A stretch of DNA of 64,000 bases from Actinacidiphila yanglinensis (GCF_900107965.1 NZ_FNVU01000003.1:248001-312000), one strand, 5' to 3'. Shown: positions 3,224 to 9,004, counted from the stretch's first letter. The notes: a model not told the origin generated them from the letters alone. A program made the numbers and translations.

Positions 3224-5233
3224 ATGGAGGACGTGGTGTTCGGGGTGCTCGGCGCGGTCGTGGGGGAGCGCGGCGGGAGGCCGCTCGCACTGAAGGGCCC
3301 GCGGCACAAAGCGGTGCTGGCCCGGCTGGTGGTGGCCCGACGGCGGGTCGTACCGGTGGCGCGGCTCGTCGAGGACCTGTGGGAGGAACCGCCGCGGGGA
3401 GCGGTGGGCGCGGTGCAGACGTTCGTCGCCGCGCTGCGCCGGGTGCTGGAGCCGGAACGACCGCCGAGGACCCCGGCCCGGCTGCTGGTGACGGAGGGAC
3501 CCGGGTACGCGCTGCGGGCGGAGCCGGACGCGGTGGACGCCTGGCGGTTCGAAGCCGCGGTACGCGCCGCCGCCACGCTGCCACCCGCACAGGCGCTGGA
3601 CCGGCTCCAGGAAGCCCTCGGAATGTGGCGCGGCCCCGCGTTCGCCGAGTTCGCGGATGAGCACTGGGCGCGGGCCGAACGCGCCCGGCTCGCCGAACTC
3701 CGCCTCCAGGCCGAGGAGCGCCGGGCCGAGGCGCGGCTGGCGCTGGGGCTGGCCGCGGAGGCGGTGCCGGACCTGGACGCCCACCTCGCCGACCATCCCT
3801 GGCGCGAGGACGCCTGGCGGCTGCTGGCCCTCGCGCTGTACCGCGGTGGCCGCCAGGGCGACGCGCTGGCGGTCCTGCGCCGCGCGAGGGCCATGCTCGT
3901 CGACCGGCTGGGGGTGGACCCGGGCCCGCGGCTGCGCCGCCTGGAGGCGGAGATCCTCGCCCAGGACCCGCGCCTCGACCCCGACCCGGCCCCCGAACCC
4001 CCCAGCTCCGCCGACCGGTTGTGGCGGGAGACCGCCGCGGCCTACGACCGTACGGTCGGCGGGGGCGCCAGGGCCCGGCTGGAGTCGACCGTCGGCCTGA
4101 TCCGCAACCTCGCGGTGACCGGGGGCGGCGGGCTGGAGGCGGCCCGGCGGCACCGGCTCGCGGCGATCTCCGCGGCGGAGGAACTCGTCGACCCGGAGCT
4201 GACCACCCGGGTGATCGGCGGCTACGACGTGCCCGCGATCTGGACCCGGGGCGACGACCCCGCGTCGGACGCGCGGATCGTCGAGGCGGCCGAACGCACC
4301 CTGGCGGCGCTGCCCTCGCGGGGTACGGGCCGGGCGCCGGAGCCGTACGACGCGGCGCGCTGCCGCCTGCTCGCCACGATCGCGGTCGAGATGCGCGGCA
4401 CCCGCTCCCCGCGCGGCCCGGAGGCGGCCCGGGCGGCCGAGGAGGCCGCGCGGCGGCTGGACGATCCGGGGCTGCTCGCGTACGCGCTCAACGGGGTGTT
4501 CATGCAGTCCTGCACCCGGGCCGGCCTGGCCCCGCGCCGGGACGAGGTCGGCGCCGAACTCGTCACGCTCGCCGCCCGGCACGGCCTCGCGACCTTCGAG
4601 GTGCTCGGGCACCTGATCCGGATGCAGGCGCGGGCCGCGCGCGCCGACTTCGCCGCCGCCGACGCGCATGCCGCCGCGGCGGACCGCCTGGCCGTACGCC
4701 ACGAACTGCCGCTGGTCGGCGTCTTCACCGAGTGGTACGCGGCGCTGCGGCTGGCCGCCAGTGGGCCGCCGGGTCCGGCCGAGGCCGCGTACCGGGCAGC
4801 CGACGCCCGGCTGGAGGGCGCGGGCATGCCCGGCGTACGGCGCGGCCTGCTGCCGCTCGCGCTGCTGTGCCGCCGGCTCGCGGACGGCGCCGCGCCCGTC
4901 GAGGACGCCGCCGGGCGGATCGAGCCCGGCGCGGACTGGGGCCCGTACCGCCCCTGGGCCGAGCCGTTCCTCCTGCTGCGCGACGGCCGGCGCGCCGACG
5001 CTCGCGACGCGCTGGGCGCCGTGCCCGAGCCGCCCGCCGACCTCACCTACGAGGCCCTGTGCTGCCTGCACGCGTGCCTCGCCGCGCACTTCGCCGACCG
5101 CCCGGCCCTGCGGGCCGCCCGCGCCCGCCTGGTGCCGGCCGCCGCCGAACTCGCGGGCGCGGGCACCGGCATGTTGACGGCCGGCCCGGTGGCTCGCCAT
5201 CTCGCCCTGATCGGCGCGGCGTTGGGCGAGTAG
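3224..5233 (+). CDS. BTAD/AfsR-SARP-type transcriptional regulator
   Basis: A 669-residue regulator. Residues 1-95 form an OmpR/SARP-type winged helix (VVPVARLVEDLWEEPP, then an AVQTFVAALRRVLEP recognition region). Residues 100-250 form the helical bacterial transcriptional activation domain (RLAELRLQAEERRAEARLAL, ending MLVDRLGVDPGPRLRRLE). The remaining ~400 residues are Ala/Arg-rich helices, probably TPR-like. I see no Walker A, so it is not a full AfsR with an NB-ARC ATPase. The start is ATG 3224 with GGGGGG just upstream. It converges on the ABC exporter of the peptide cassette with 22 bp between stops, so regulation of that cassette is possible but unproven. Confidence 0.88.
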   Translation: MEDVVFGVLGAVVGERGGRPLALKGPRHKAVLARLVVARRRVVPVARLVEDLWEEPPRGAVGAVQTFVAALRRVLEPERPPRTPARLLVTEGPGYALRAEPDAVDAWRFEAAVRAAATLPPAQALDRLQEALGMWRGPAFAEFADEHWARAERARLAELRLQAEERRAEARLALGLAAEAVPDLDAHLADHPWREDAWRLLALALYRGGRQGDALAVLRRARAMLVDRLGVDPGPRLRRLEAEILAQDPRLDPDPAPEPPSSADRLWRETAAAYDRTVGGGARARLESTVGLIRNLAVTGGGGLEAARRHRLAAISAAEELVDPELTTRVIGGYDVPAIWTRGDDPASDARIVEAAERTLAALPSRGTGRAPEPYDAARCRLLATIAVEMRGTRSPRGPEAARAAEEAARRLDDPGLLAYALNGVFMQSCTRAGLAPRRDEVGAELVTLAARHGLATFEVLGHLIRMQARAARADFAAADAHAAAADRLAVRHELPLVGVFTEWYAALRLAASGPPGPAEAAYRAADARLEGAGMPGVRRGLLPLALLCRRLADGAAPVEDAAGRIEPGADWGPYRPWAEPFLLLRDGRRADARDALGAVPEPPADLTYEALCCLHACLAAHFADRPALRAARARLVPAAAELAGAGTGMLTAGPVARHLALIGAALGE

Positions 5234-5255: not shown

Positions 5256-7187
5256 TCAGGACGCGGAGCCCACCGGGTCGTCGGAGAGCTGGTAGCCCTC
5301 GGCCTGGAGGCGGAAGAGCGCGGCATAGCGGCCGTCGCGGGCCATCAGGGCCGCGTGGTCGCCCTCCTCGACGATCCTGCCGCCTTCCAGGACGACGATG
5401 CGGTCGGCGTCGCGCACGGTGCTGAGCCGGTGCGAGATCAGCAGGCCGGCGCGCCCGCGACGGTGGTCGCGCAGCCCGCGGTGGATCTCGCGTTCGGCCA
5501 CTGGGTCGAGGCCGGAGGAGGGTTCGTCCAGGATCAGCAGGTCCGCGTCGTCGCGGAGCAAGGCGCGGGCCAGGGCGACCCGTTGCCACTGCCCGCCGGA
5601 CAGCAGCACGCCGGTCCCGCTGCCCGGCGCCCCCTTCGGTGCCCCATCCGGCCCGCCGCCGCGCCGGCCCACCCTGCCGCCCGTGGCGCGCGCGCCGGGG
5701 TTCCGCACGTGCATGCGGCTGAGATAGGTGGCGTATCCGTCCGGCAGCGCGGCGAGCCCGCCGTCGATCCCGGCGCGGGCGGCGGCGTCGCGCAGCCGGG
5801 GCAGATCGTGCAGGGCGGAGAGGTCGCCGACGGCGATGTTGTCGGCGGCGGACATGTCGTACGTCATGAAGTCCTGGAAGACCGCACCGATCCGGCGGCG
5901 TACGGAGGGCAGGTCGAGGCGGGCGAGGTCGGTGCCGTTCCAGGTGACGCTGCCCCGGGTCGGCCGGTAGAGCCCGAGCAGCAGCTTGACCAGGGTCGAC
6001 TTGCCGGCGCCGTTGAGGCCGACGAGGGCGACGGACTCCCCCGGGCGGATCGTCAGGTCCACGCCGCGCAGCACCCAGTCGTGGTCGGGGTGGTAGCGGA
6101 ACCACACCCCGCGCAGGGCGGCGCCCTCGACCAGCGGGCCCGCCTCCCCGGCCGGCCCGTCGTCCGCCGTCGGCCCGGGACCGGGCGGGGCGGCAGGCGG
6201 GCGGACCAGGTCGGTGTAGTGGCGGAAGAGCATCAGTGCCTGGCTCATCCCGCCGAGCAGGCTCACCAGGGAGGCGATGCTGAGCTGGACGCCGGCCAGC
6301 GCGCCGGTGACCACGGCCAGTTCGCCGACGCTGCCGTGGCCGGAGTCGATCCGGTGCACCGCCAGGAACAGGGCGGCGGCCGACACCCCCGCGGACAGCA
6401 GGCCGAGCGACCCGTCGACGCGCAGCACCGTGCGATCCACGGCGCGGTTGCCCTCCTGCGCGCCGCACAGGTCCCGCAGCATCCGGTCCCGGAAGAACCC
6501 GCCCAGGCCGTACAGCCGGATCTCCTTCGCCGCGCGGAGGTCGGTCATCAGCGTCACGTAGAAGACCTGGCGCCGCAGCAGGGGCGTGGTCAGCTCGGCC
6601 ATCTCGCCGCGCCGGCGCCCCAGCCGGATCTGGGCGAACAGGGCGGGCAGCGCGGCGGCCGGCACGAGCAGGGCGATCCGCGGCGAGAACGCGCAGAGCG
6701 CCGTGACGAAGGTGCCGACGGTCAGCGCGCTCTGCACGACGGTGAGCACGGCGCCGACGATCAGCTGCGGGCTGCTCTGGCTGGCCTGCTGGGCGAGCCG
6801 GAGCCGGTCCTGGTGGCCGGGGTCCTCCAGTTCGGCCAGGCCCTGCCGTGCGCCGATACCGGTGAACAGCGCGGACTGCGTGTGCAGGGTGATCCGGCGG
6901 TCGGCCTCACGGTCGCTGTAGCGGGACAGCTCCTGCGCGACGGCCAGCACCCCGCCGACGGTGGCCAGCACGCCGACCGCGAGCCACAGGGGCGGGCCGG
7001 CGTGCCGTCCGAGCCGGTCCAGGACGGACTTGGTGGCCCAGGCGGTGGCGATCGGCGCGACCCCGGACAGCAGCGTGGTGGCGACCCGGACCAGCGCGGA
7101 GACCGGGGCCGCCCGCACGTACAGCGCGCAGGCCCGGAGCAGCAACGACCAGAAGCCGGAGGGCTGTTCGGTGGTGCGGCGGCGCAT
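5256..7187 (-). CDS. ABC transporter, fused permease and ATPase (probable peptide exporter)
   Basis: A 643-residue half-transporter. A six-helix membrane domain covers about residues 15-325. The nucleotide-binding domain has Walker A GLNGAGKST (390-398), LSGGQ (529-533), Walker B LLILDEP (550-556) and the switch His in LLISHRLSTV. There is no N-terminal C39 peptidase domain, so it would not cleave a leader. About 30 Gly/Arg-rich residues (495-526) are inserted just before LSGGQ, where relatives have only a short loop. It starts 5 nt after the thioredoxin-like gene and is last in a four-gene cassette with a small Cys peptide, so export of that peptide is the natural inference. Confidence 0.9.
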   Translation of the reverse strand: MRRRTTEQPSGFWSLLLRACALYVRAAPVSALVRVATTLLSGVAPIATAWATKSVLDRLGRHAGPPLWLAVGVLATVGGVLAVAQELSRYSDREADRRITLHTQSALFTGIGARQGLAELEDPGHQDRLRLAQQASQSSPQLIVGAVLTVVQSALTVGTFVTALCAFSPRIALLVPAAALPALFAQIRLGRRRGEMAELTTPLLRRQVFYVTLMTDLRAAKEIRLYGLGGFFRDRMLRDLCGAQEGNRAVDRTVLRVDGSLGLLSAGVSAAALFLAVHRIDSGHGSVGELAVVTGALAGVQLSIASLVSLLGGMSQALMLFRHYTDLVRPPAAPPGPGPTADDGPAGEAGPLVEGAALRGVWFRYHPDHDWVLRGVDLTIRPGESVALVGLNGAGKSTLVKLLLGLYRPTRGSVTWNGTDLARLDLPSVRRRIGAVFQDFMTYDMSAADNIAVGDLSALHDLPRLRDAAARAGIDGGLAALPDGYATYLSRMHVRNPGARATGGRVGRRGGGPDGAPKGAPGSGTGVLLSGGQWQRVALARALLRDDADLLILDEPSSGLDPVAEREIHRGLRDHRRGRAGLLISHRLSTVRDADRIVVLEGGRIVEEGDHAALMARDGRYAALFRLQAEGYQLSDDPVGSAS

Positions 7188-7192
7188 CCGGG

Positions 7193-7726
7193 TCAGCCGA
7201 TCGGGAGCGGCAGCGGCAGCGCGCCCAGCGCGGGCCCGCTCGCGACGACCCGTCCGTCGGCGCCGACCAGGAAGTACGCCGGGGTCAGGTCGCTGCGGAA
7301 CCGCCTGGCCAGCTCCGCGGCGTCCTCGCCCACCAGCAGGCGGCCGGTCGAGGAGAGCAGCGGGCGCAGGCCCTCCCGGTCGGCACCGGTGTCGACGAGG
7401 GCCGACAGGAGGTGCACGCCCGACGCCGCCAACGCCCCTGCGCGCGTGGCCAGTTCGGGTGCATGCCGCGCGCACTCCGGGCACGTGGTGGCGAAGAAGG
7501 CGACCAGCGTGGGGTGCCCGCGCAGCGACTCCCCGGTCACCGGCTCGCCCCGCGCGTCGCGCAGGTCCACCTCCGGTACCGCGGCGCCGGGTGCGAGGCC
7601 GTGCGAAGGGACGCTTCCGCCGGGAGCGGCAGCGGTGCGCAGCCGGCGGATCACCGCGCCGCTGACCGCGAGGTTGAGCACGCACAGGACGCCGACGACG
7701 ATGACGGCGGCCGTCAGGACCACCAT
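7193..7726 (-). CDS. TlpA/MauD-like membrane-anchored thioredoxin
   Basis: A 177-residue redoxin. An uncleaved N-terminal membrane anchor (about residues 3-25) is followed by an AhpC/TSA-TlpA fold, with the redox pair at Cys82 and Cys85 in FATTCPECARHAP. The C-terminal LTPAYFLVGADGRVV is the cis-Pro strand region of the family. The topology puts the active site outside the membrane, suited to making or isomerising disulfides in exported protein. AAGGAGG lies 7 nt before the ATG. It lies between a MauE-like gene and the ABC exporter. In methylamine dehydrogenase clusters a MauD thioredoxin and MauE together mature a disulfide-rich subunit, which is the analogy used here. Confidence 0.88.
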   Translation of the reverse strand: MVVLTAAVIVVGVLCVLNLAVSGAVIRRLRTAAAPGGSVPSHGLAPGAAVPEVDLRDARGEPVTGESLRGHPTLVAFFATTCPECARHAPELATRAGALAASGVHLLSALVDTGADREGLRPLLSSTGRLLVGEDAAELARRFRSDLTPAYFLVGADGRVVASGPALGALPLPLPIG

Positions 7727-7806
7727 GGTGGGGCCTCCTTGGAGAAGGGGTTGGGTGCCGGGTGCGGGCGTGCGGGTTCGTGCGCTGGGCGCGGGCGGGA
7801 CCGGGG

Positions 7807-8376
7807 TCAGCCGGGCGTCGCGAGCAGGTCCGCCAGGTCGTCCCAGAACGCGGCGATCCAGGCGGGCGCGGTCGCGGCCAGGACGCCGACCAGCAGCGCG
7901 GGCACGCCGATCGGCCGGGCTCCCGAGTCGCCGAGCGAGCCGGCCAGCCCGGTGCCCGCGGTCGCCATGAGCAGGGCATTGCGCGCCAACTGGGCGCGGC
8001 CGACGGGCGCGTGGCCGGCCCCGAAGCAGTTGCAGGAGACGGTGCTGCCGCGCCGCAGCGCCCCGGCCAGGGCCGCGCTGAACGCCAGTAGTAGGACGAA
8101 CGCGGCGGCCAGCGCGAGGTCGGAGCCGGCGGGCGCGAGCAGGCCCGCCACGAGCAGGGCCTCCGCGGCGGGCACCGCGGCCGGCAGGGCCCGGTCGCCA
8201 CGGTGCCCGGCCGTCCACCGGCCGAGCGGACCGCTCAGTTCCGCAAATGACTTGCGAAAACTTGCGTAGCCGCCGGCCGGAAACACCTTGGTCGCGGCGG
8301 AGAAAGCGAACACCATCGCGAGGACGAGCCGGGATTCCACTTGCGCCCAATGGGATATCGGAATCACGTATTCCAC
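7807..8376 (-). CDS. MauE/DoxX-like redox-associated membrane protein
   Basis: About 189 residues with four to five predicted membrane helices. Cys115 and Cys117 sit in VSCNCFGAG, a pattern typical of MauE-family proteins. The likely role is passing electrons between the cytoplasm or quinones and the adjacent external thioredoxin. The start is uncertain: GTG 8376 gives MEYVIPISHW, GTG 8367 is an alternative, and neither has a strong ribosome site. Weak translation would fit the strong hairpin just upstream, which separates it from the peptide gene. It is followed after 80 nt by the TlpA-like gene. No quinone-binding residues could be identified by eye. Confidence 0.8.
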   Translation of the reverse strand: MEYVIPISHWAQVESRLVLAMVFAFSAATKVFPAGGYASFRKSFAELSGPLGRWTAGHRGDRALPAAVPAAEALLVAGLLAPAGSDLALAAAFVLLLAFSAALAGALRRGSTVSCNCFGAGHAPVGRAQLARNALLMATAGTGLAGSLGDSGARPIGVPALLVGVLAATAPAWIAAFWDDLADLLATPG

Positions 8377-8405
8377 CCCGGGTTTTCTGCGAGATACTGG
8401 CGGGT

Positions 8406-8442
8406 GGTGCGTGGGGGCGAATTCCGGTCGCCCCCACGCACC
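8406..8442 (-). terminator. 15-bp perfect stem-loop between peptide gene and mauE-like gene
   Basis: GGTGCGTGGGGGCGA (8406-8420) and TCGCCCCCACGCACC (8428-8442) pair perfectly around a 7-nt loop. It starts 20 nt beyond the peptide stop codon and ends 30 nt before the MauE-like start. There is no clear U-tract. Such a hairpin could act as a partial terminator or 3'-end stabiliser, giving more peptide mRNA than downstream enzyme mRNA, as seen in many small-peptide operons. Confidence 0.75.
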
Positions 8443-8462
8443 CCCACGAGATGACCGGCGGG

Positions 8463-8672
8463 TCAGACGCCGCAGTCGGCGGCGTACACGACGCCGCTGA
8501 TGTGGAGCTGGCAACGCACCGCTCCGCTGCACGAGTTGATGCTCTCGTACATGACCTCGTCGCCGACCTCCCAGATCGGCTTGTAGGGGCCCCAACCGCA
8601 GGCCGCCGCCTCCCTCTTGGGTGCTACGGCACGCAGAATGCGGTCGCCGACCCGCTCGAACGTCGTACGCAT
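8463..8672 (-). CDS. small four-cysteine peptide, candidate exported/modified precursor
   Basis: A 69-residue product of unrecognised family. Residues 1-24 (MRTTFERVGDRILRAVAPKR...) are charged and probably helical, like a leader. Residues 25-69 hold four cysteines (25, 48, 54, 67), are rich in Gly, aromatic and hydroxyl residues, and end DCGV. There is no Sec signal or transmembrane segment. The start ATG has GGAG 7 nt upstream, one of the best ribosome sites in the area. Directly downstream lie a strong stem-loop, a MauE-like protein, a TlpA-like thioredoxin and an ABC exporter. The inference is that the peptide is exported and gains two disulfides. It could instead be a small soluble protein unrelated to the exporter. 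Confidence 0.75.
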   Translation of the reverse strand: MRTTFERVGDRILRAVAPKREAAACGWGPYKPIWEVGDEVMYESINSCSGAVRCQLHISGVVYAADCGV

Positions 8673-9004
8673 GGCTTCTCCTTCGGTCGTTCCCACGAAT
8701 TTCAGGGGTGCCGGACGGCCGGTACGCGAATCCACCGGACCCGGCCGCACAAGAATGAAAGCACAGCCCGGAAATATTCAAGCCGCGGAACGAAAAAACT
8801 CGGAGCCGCACCCCGGGGAAACCGACGAAGCGTCACATAGTCGCCCATAGCGGGGAGTTGGATCGCGCAAGCACGTTGACTCGACTGAGCCGAAGATGTG
8901 AGGATCGCGAATGAAGGAAGGTAAATATCTTGCGCAGGGATGGTGATTGTTGACATCGACAGCCGTGGTGAGGGTTCGACCCGGGGATGCCAGCAAGCAG
9001 GCAT
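8673..9004 (-). promoter_or_regulatory. AT-richer upstream region of the peptide gene
   Basis: This stretch between treY and the peptide gene is visibly richer in A and T than anything around it, especially about 8740-8960. It holds no convincing gene: the open frames across it lack ribosome sites and recognisable motifs. It most likely contains the promoter and a long leader for the peptide cassette. A weak candidate, TTGAAT with CATTCT 18 nt downstream on the minus strand near 8755-8785, is not strong enough to call. Confidence 0.4.

Follow-up and report, generated by a model that had tools for sequence, protein, structure and literature searches.

Related Systems

Pediocin is a 44-residue peptide with four cysteines in two disulfides, and the pediocin PA-1 operon pedABCD encodes an exporter, PedD, that also removes the leader, as well as an immunity gene (PMC4919988). 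This operon is the closest experimentally studied analogue of a four-gene cassette at positions 5256-8672 of a 64,000-nucleotide stretch of Actinacidiphila yanglinensis DNA (GCF_900107965.1, NZ_FNVU01000003.1:248001-312000), referred to here as the window. As with pediocin PA-1 and sublancin 168, a small leader peptide with cysteine pairs is accompanied by a dedicated ATP-binding cassette (ABC) exporter and a dedicated thiol-disulfide oxidoreductase function, represented by a TlpA-like protein (CxxC) together with MauE (CxC). Unlike the pediocin type, the exporter has no C39 domain and the leader ends in AxA instead of a double glycine, so that by both tests the module is not pediocin-type; it also includes an S26 peptidase and MauE, and no immunity gene has been recognised in it. 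By analogy, the module may work like the pediocin system, except that another enzyme serves as leader peptidase and MauE is an extra component. The best explanation of the whole is a system for making and secreting a disulfide-bonded peptide, to which we assign a probability of about 0.72.

Two other kinds of system share components with the module. The mauD and mauE genes are proposed, in the part of a 2020 report that cites earlier work on them, to form disulfides in the small subunit of methylamine dehydrogenase (PMC7794033). The module likewise pairs MauE (PF07291) with a MauD-like thioredoxin, but here the two accompany a small, hypervariable peptide and its ABC exporter. Among the module's neighbours no dehydrogenase-like gene is found repeatedly, a result that comes from these neighbourhoods and not from a dedicated whole-genome search. 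The S26 protein resembles type I signal peptidases in its GxSMxP serine motif, its invariant lysine and the AxA of its putative substrate. The substrates differ from those of type I enzymes in lacking a Sec signal peptide, having a short leader that is used with an ABC exporter.

The nearest computational precedent is decRiPPter (PLoS Biol 2020, PMC7794033), a prediction of families of ribosomally synthesized and post-translationally modified peptides (RiPPs). In the sections of that report considered here, three computed candidate families of Streptomyces carry mauE, one of them also mauD; their precursors have at least eight cysteines, a role for mauE in modification is suggested, and the strict filter also demanded a transporter, a peptidase and a regulator. 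MauE next to a cysteine-rich precursor is common to those families and the window, whose peptide, unlike theirs, has four cysteines, while other members found here have 8 or 10. Compared by published description rather than by precursor sequence, the decRiPPter families represent the same idea and perhaps the same family, and the same sections give no common leader, S26 role, breadth, even-cysteine rule or product. The initial annotation had called the cassette undescribed, which is too strong given the 2020 prediction and only partly right; for the whole family and for its leader-cutting enzyme, literature searches on S26 or disulfide RiPPs returned no description. A conserved leader, a variable core and dedicated maturation genes make the system a candidate RiPP, the modification of the product being predicted.

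The Window Cassette

The window cassette is a genuine gene set, as the initial annotation had claimed: a peptide gene is followed, in order and on the same strand, by genes for MauE, a TlpA/MauD-like thioredoxin with a CPEC motif and an ABC exporter (Table 1). The thioredoxin matches the MauD model only weakly (E 3.7e-6, far under the model's cut-off). No match to Peptidase_C39 was obtained for the exporter in Pfam and NCBIfam profile scans.

Table 1. Features of the window cassette and the adjoining regulator gene (positions counted from the first letter of the window).
Feature	Position	Strand	Evidence or detail
SARP/AfsR-type regulator (BTAD), convergent with exporter gene	3224..5233	+	BTAD E 1.2e-40
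ABC exporter, membrane and ATPase domains fused in one protein	5256..7187	-	ABC_tran E 2e-29, ABC_membrane E 1.4e-6
TlpA/MauD-like thioredoxin, N-terminal membrane segment, CPEC	7193..7726	-	AhpC-TSA E 3.6e-10
MauE-like membrane redox protein (CNCFG)	about 7807..8376	-	PF07291 E 2.9e-22
Hairpin between peptide and MauE genes, perfect 15-bp stem (GGTGCGTGGGGGCGA / TCGCCCCCACGCACC)	8406..8442	-	z -2.9
Peptide gene (MRTTFERVGDRILRAVAPKREAAACGWGPYKPIWEVGDEVMYESINSCSGAVRCQLHISGVVYAADCGV)	8672-8463	-	ATG start, 69 aa, Cys at 25, 48, 54, 67
Core, residues 25-69 (CGWGPYKP...AADCGV) and stop, 4 Cys	8463..8600	-	Cys columns common to L032, L033
Leader, residues 1-24 (MRTTFERVGDRILRAVAPKREAAA), AxA at end	8601..8672	-	leader alignment; profile E 1.2e-9
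Ribosome binding site AAGGAG, about 5 bases upstream of peptide start	8678..8683	-	sequence

The peptide gene has a G+C content by codon position of 0.62/0.52/0.88, like genuine genes of such genomes. When the 9.6 Mb genome was searched with a leader profile of 25 rows, one of which is the window peptide itself, that peptide was the sole strong match (E 1.2e-9) and the next had an E of 1.07. This single match, and the fact that the leader accompanies these genes again in dozens of other genomes, place the peptide beyond chance. The peptide has no match in Pfam, NCBIfam or PDB, and none of eleven peptides tried (the window peptide and ten others) scored above the cut-off of any curated Pfam or NCBIfam family. 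A direct scan of genome contigs with the window peptide as query also gave no relative, because the core is too variable. AlphaFold prediction of the peptide alone was uninformative (mean confidence score, pLDDT, 48.8).

A strong hairpin 3′ of the peptide gene is a general feature of the family, with a mean z of -2.3 over 71 peptide genes as against -0.05 for control stretches. Attenuators are common between the structural and maturation genes of bacteriocins and lantibiotics, and the window hairpin is likely to be one, yielding an excess of precursor mRNA.

The window exporter is 50% identical to that of Dactylosporangium fulvum and 52% identical to those of two other loci, L032 and L033. Its ATPase domain carries a Gly/Arg-rich insertion (RNPGARATGGRVGRRGGGPDGAPKGAPGSGTG) directly preceding the LSGGQWQR signature, and the L032 and L033 exporters have a shorter insertion at the equivalent place. 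The convergent SARP/AfsR-type gene is a candidate pathway regulator; SARP-like regulators lie near 19 of 64 loci compared, the window among them.

Distribution and Conservation of the Module

The starting search covered 199 related genomes. Peptides of the same four-cysteine type were found in two of them (G012 and G020), where the order is peptide, TlpA, ABC. A third genome (G053) has a peptide with the same leader and a different core, in the order peptide, MauE, S26 signal peptidase, TlpA, ABC. A profile built from four TlpA proteins then matched 60 of 395 genomes of the family at E <= 1e-12. Sixty loci fetched after this search (L065-L124) were compared with the window and L032-L034, giving 64 loci in all. 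Profiles for MauE, TlpA and S26 were made from true-frame domains, with the best domain taken per open reading frame and length limits applied.

The gene set proved consistent. TlpA is present in all 64 loci, S26 in 60, MauE in 59 and an ABC exporter resembling that of the window in nearly all, while the leader profile recovers 71 peptides in 63 loci. The leader-like N-terminus proposed for the window peptide is the leader shared by the peptides of these 63 loci (…DRLLxR..P..AxA). Catalytic motifs are retained throughout, with CxC in 59/59 MauE, CxxC in 64/66 TlpA and GxSMxP in 60/60 S26 proteins; the lysine and serine are invariant among 24 aligned S26 proteins. The remaining locus, L099, has neither a leader peptide nor other module genes and is simply another TlpA.

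Since the training leaders had been picked with A-x-A in a regular expression, the leader was also sought in 20 held-out loci of a class-wide search, all outside the training set. A leader peptide scoring E <= 0.002 is present in fourteen of these and also in D. fulvum (L170), one of three further loci reached through an exporter genome scan; matches are weaker in Nocardiopsis ganjiahuensis (L171, E 0.005) and Streptomyces fragilis (L172, E 0.06). Every one of these peptides contains either 6 or 8 cysteines, and AxA closes most of their leaders. In D. fulvum the genes for MauE, S26, a SARP-like protein, the peptide, TlpA and ABC lie side by side. Outside the family, hardly any additional convincing match came from a phylum-wide sample, whereas the class-wide search did give some, so the distribution of the system is patchy, with a few actinomycete families holding most of it. 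A plasmid search yielded weak partial TlpA matches only and so gave no indication that plasmids carry this subtype.

Several loci depart from the common layout. At L119:4441-5033, L260:7101-7915, L072, L073 and L111 leader peptides are encoded in tandem, two or three to a cluster, and their cores are related without being the same, as if the core had been duplicated and diversified. MauE has a TlpA gene on either side at L121:5263-7223 and L122:4612-6607, and the CxxC of one of the pair is degraded to CGPT, which suggests a partner of altered redox role. Selenocysteine, considered for some TlpA proteins on account of apparent TGA read-through, was rejected, the TGA being a normal terminal stop. 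A large FtsX-type permease adjoins six clusters (L032:6958-9876, L033, L093, L102, L104 and L114), and in L032 and L033 is divergent from the peptide; it could serve as immunity protein or as a second export system.

Leader and Core

The leader is conserved and the core hypervariable. Twenty-five leaders align easily; the only invariant columns are A22 and A24 of the AxA, a conservation partly selected by the A-x-A in the regular expression with which these leaders were first chosen. P18 is nearly invariant and D-R-L-L is common in the middle. AxA ends the leader in 69 of the 71 peptides, the remaining two having VEA. Between divergent loci (TlpA 20-45% identical), leaders share 35-36% identity versus 18% when shuffled, whereas cores share 24-25% versus 23% and are therefore no more alike than shuffled sequences.

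The cysteines follow a simple rule. None of the 71 leaders contains one, and the cores contain 6 (45 peptides), 8 (15), 10 (6), 4 (4) or 7 (1). The number is thus even in 70/71 peptides, or 67/68 once identical peptides are removed, and of 41 distinct spacing patterns 40 are even. That the even-cysteine rule holds over so many frameworks unrelated to one another argues strongly, if indirectly, for the pairing of all core cysteines, and two disulfides are expected in the window core. The comparison proposed in the initial annotation supports its reading, in that gene set and leader are conserved whereas the C-terminal part varies; cysteine positions are fixed only within the four-cysteine subtype (window, L032 and L033), spacing being free across the family.

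Leader Removal and a Proposed S26 Peptidase in Trans

The initial annotation noted an exporter lacking a protease, which is correct, and left leader removal open, which is no longer the case. S26 is present in 60/64 loci and the leaders terminate in AxA, which indicates that this enzyme is part of the system. Type I signal peptidases cut after AxA, which fits S26 as the leader peptidase, and we infer that it removes the leader at this site. The window cluster itself has no S26 gene. Elsewhere in the same genome (G000), however, there is one clear S26 protein of the module type, at C25:41093-41533 (E 1.6e-39), other S26 proteins scoring about 5e-13 or weaker.

Among 35 genomes of the genus, an S26 at least 60% identical to this trans-acting candidate is found only in four: G000:C25:41093-41533, G012:C52:131895-132320, G020:C1:2916398-2916817 and G018:C279:235-654. 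The four-cysteine cluster occurs in G000, G012 and G020, all three of which carry the trans S26, versus 1/32 of the others; the chance of this overlap if random is 4/6545, or about 0.0006, uncorrected for relatedness. In G012 the trans S26 adjoins an ABC ATPase and a MauE 45-49% identical to that of the window. The simplest history would be one ancestral cluster later split in this genus. The neighbourhood of the trans S26 is alike in G000, G012 and G020, with YCII-like, sigma-like and AAA/TPR genes.

Proposed Mechanism and Alternatives

The following order of events is proposed. The hairpin would limit read-through into the downstream genes and leave the precursor in excess, and the 24-residue leader would direct it to the dedicated ABC exporter and so across the membrane. 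Outside the cell, the MauE-TlpA pair would form or reshuffle disulfides, TlpA acting on the peptide and MauE handing electrons to the membrane. The type I-like S26 peptidase, supplied in trans in this genome, would cut after Ala24 to give a core of Cys25-Val69 with two disulfides. The core would then most likely antagonise other bacteria, and a bacteriocin-like secreted peptide is the most likely function, an antagonistic role being suggested by the hypervariable cargo.

Some observations weigh against this account. Bacteriocins normally need an immunity gene, and no recurrent one was seen among the module neighbours, which calls for caution on antagonism. Since reduction, and not oxidation, is often the task of TlpA-type proteins, the MauE-TlpA pair could instead form a reductase or isomerase pathway. 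With four cysteines and no local S26, the window cluster is not a typical one; L032 and L033 lack MauE at the locus as well as a local S26, and MauE copies in G020 are only more distant (37%). Co-occurrence with the trans S26 rests on three related genomes, and G018 has this S26 with no detectable peptide, TlpA or MauE, perhaps as a remnant.

The missing immunity gene would be less of a difficulty if the same export and disulfide machinery served a signal or developmental peptide, autoinducer-like and acting on the producer's own cells. The nearby SARP regulators and the several tandem peptides at a few loci (L119 and L260) would also suit such a role. Signals, however, are usually conserved with their receptors, whereas the cores of divergent loci are as unlike as shuffled sequences, and the module's neighbours include no recurrent receptor gene; a signal is therefore unlikely. 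It is quite unlikely, too, that the core has some other extracellular task by the same maturation route, such as enzyme inhibition, metal or surface binding, or action on eukaryotes. Disulfide-rich hypervariable miniproteins do have such roles elsewhere, and the sequences here indicate no target, but none of the peptides tested has a convincing relative in Pfam, NCBIfam or PDB.

A further explanation treats the peptide as a bystander to MauE, TlpA and ABC, which would serve redox or heme-type maturation in general, in the manner of CcmG/ResA or CydDC. The module TlpA does belong to the ResA/AhpC-TSA group, and the window exporter matches CydC and CydD models, far under their cut-offs. Against this, the leader peptide adjoins the module in all but one of the loci compared. 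Peptide homologues found widely without these neighbours would have spoken against the cassette, yet in the 35 genus genomes all seven leader matches (7/7) adjoin module genes and none lies away from them. A bystander peptide is thus extremely improbable, and a secreted disulfide peptide remains the preferred explanation.

Significance

Beyond the window, the module probably marks a large class of peptides, as yet without a name, that actinobacteria secrete and modify by disulfides only. One AxA leader would serve dozens of unrelated cysteine frameworks, with a shared exporter, MauE-TlpA pair and dedicated S26 peptidase, the last sometimes in trans, making the class a bacterial counterpart of hypervariable defensin-like libraries. 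If this is true, about a seventh of the species sampled in the family (60/395 in the TlpA search), along with other actinomycetes, carry a disulfide-miniprotein line with swappable cores. Stray MauE-TlpA pairs would acquire a testable function, the production of disulfide peptides in Streptomyces could draw on a defined leader and cleavage site, and unexplored peptides would be at hand by the dozen.

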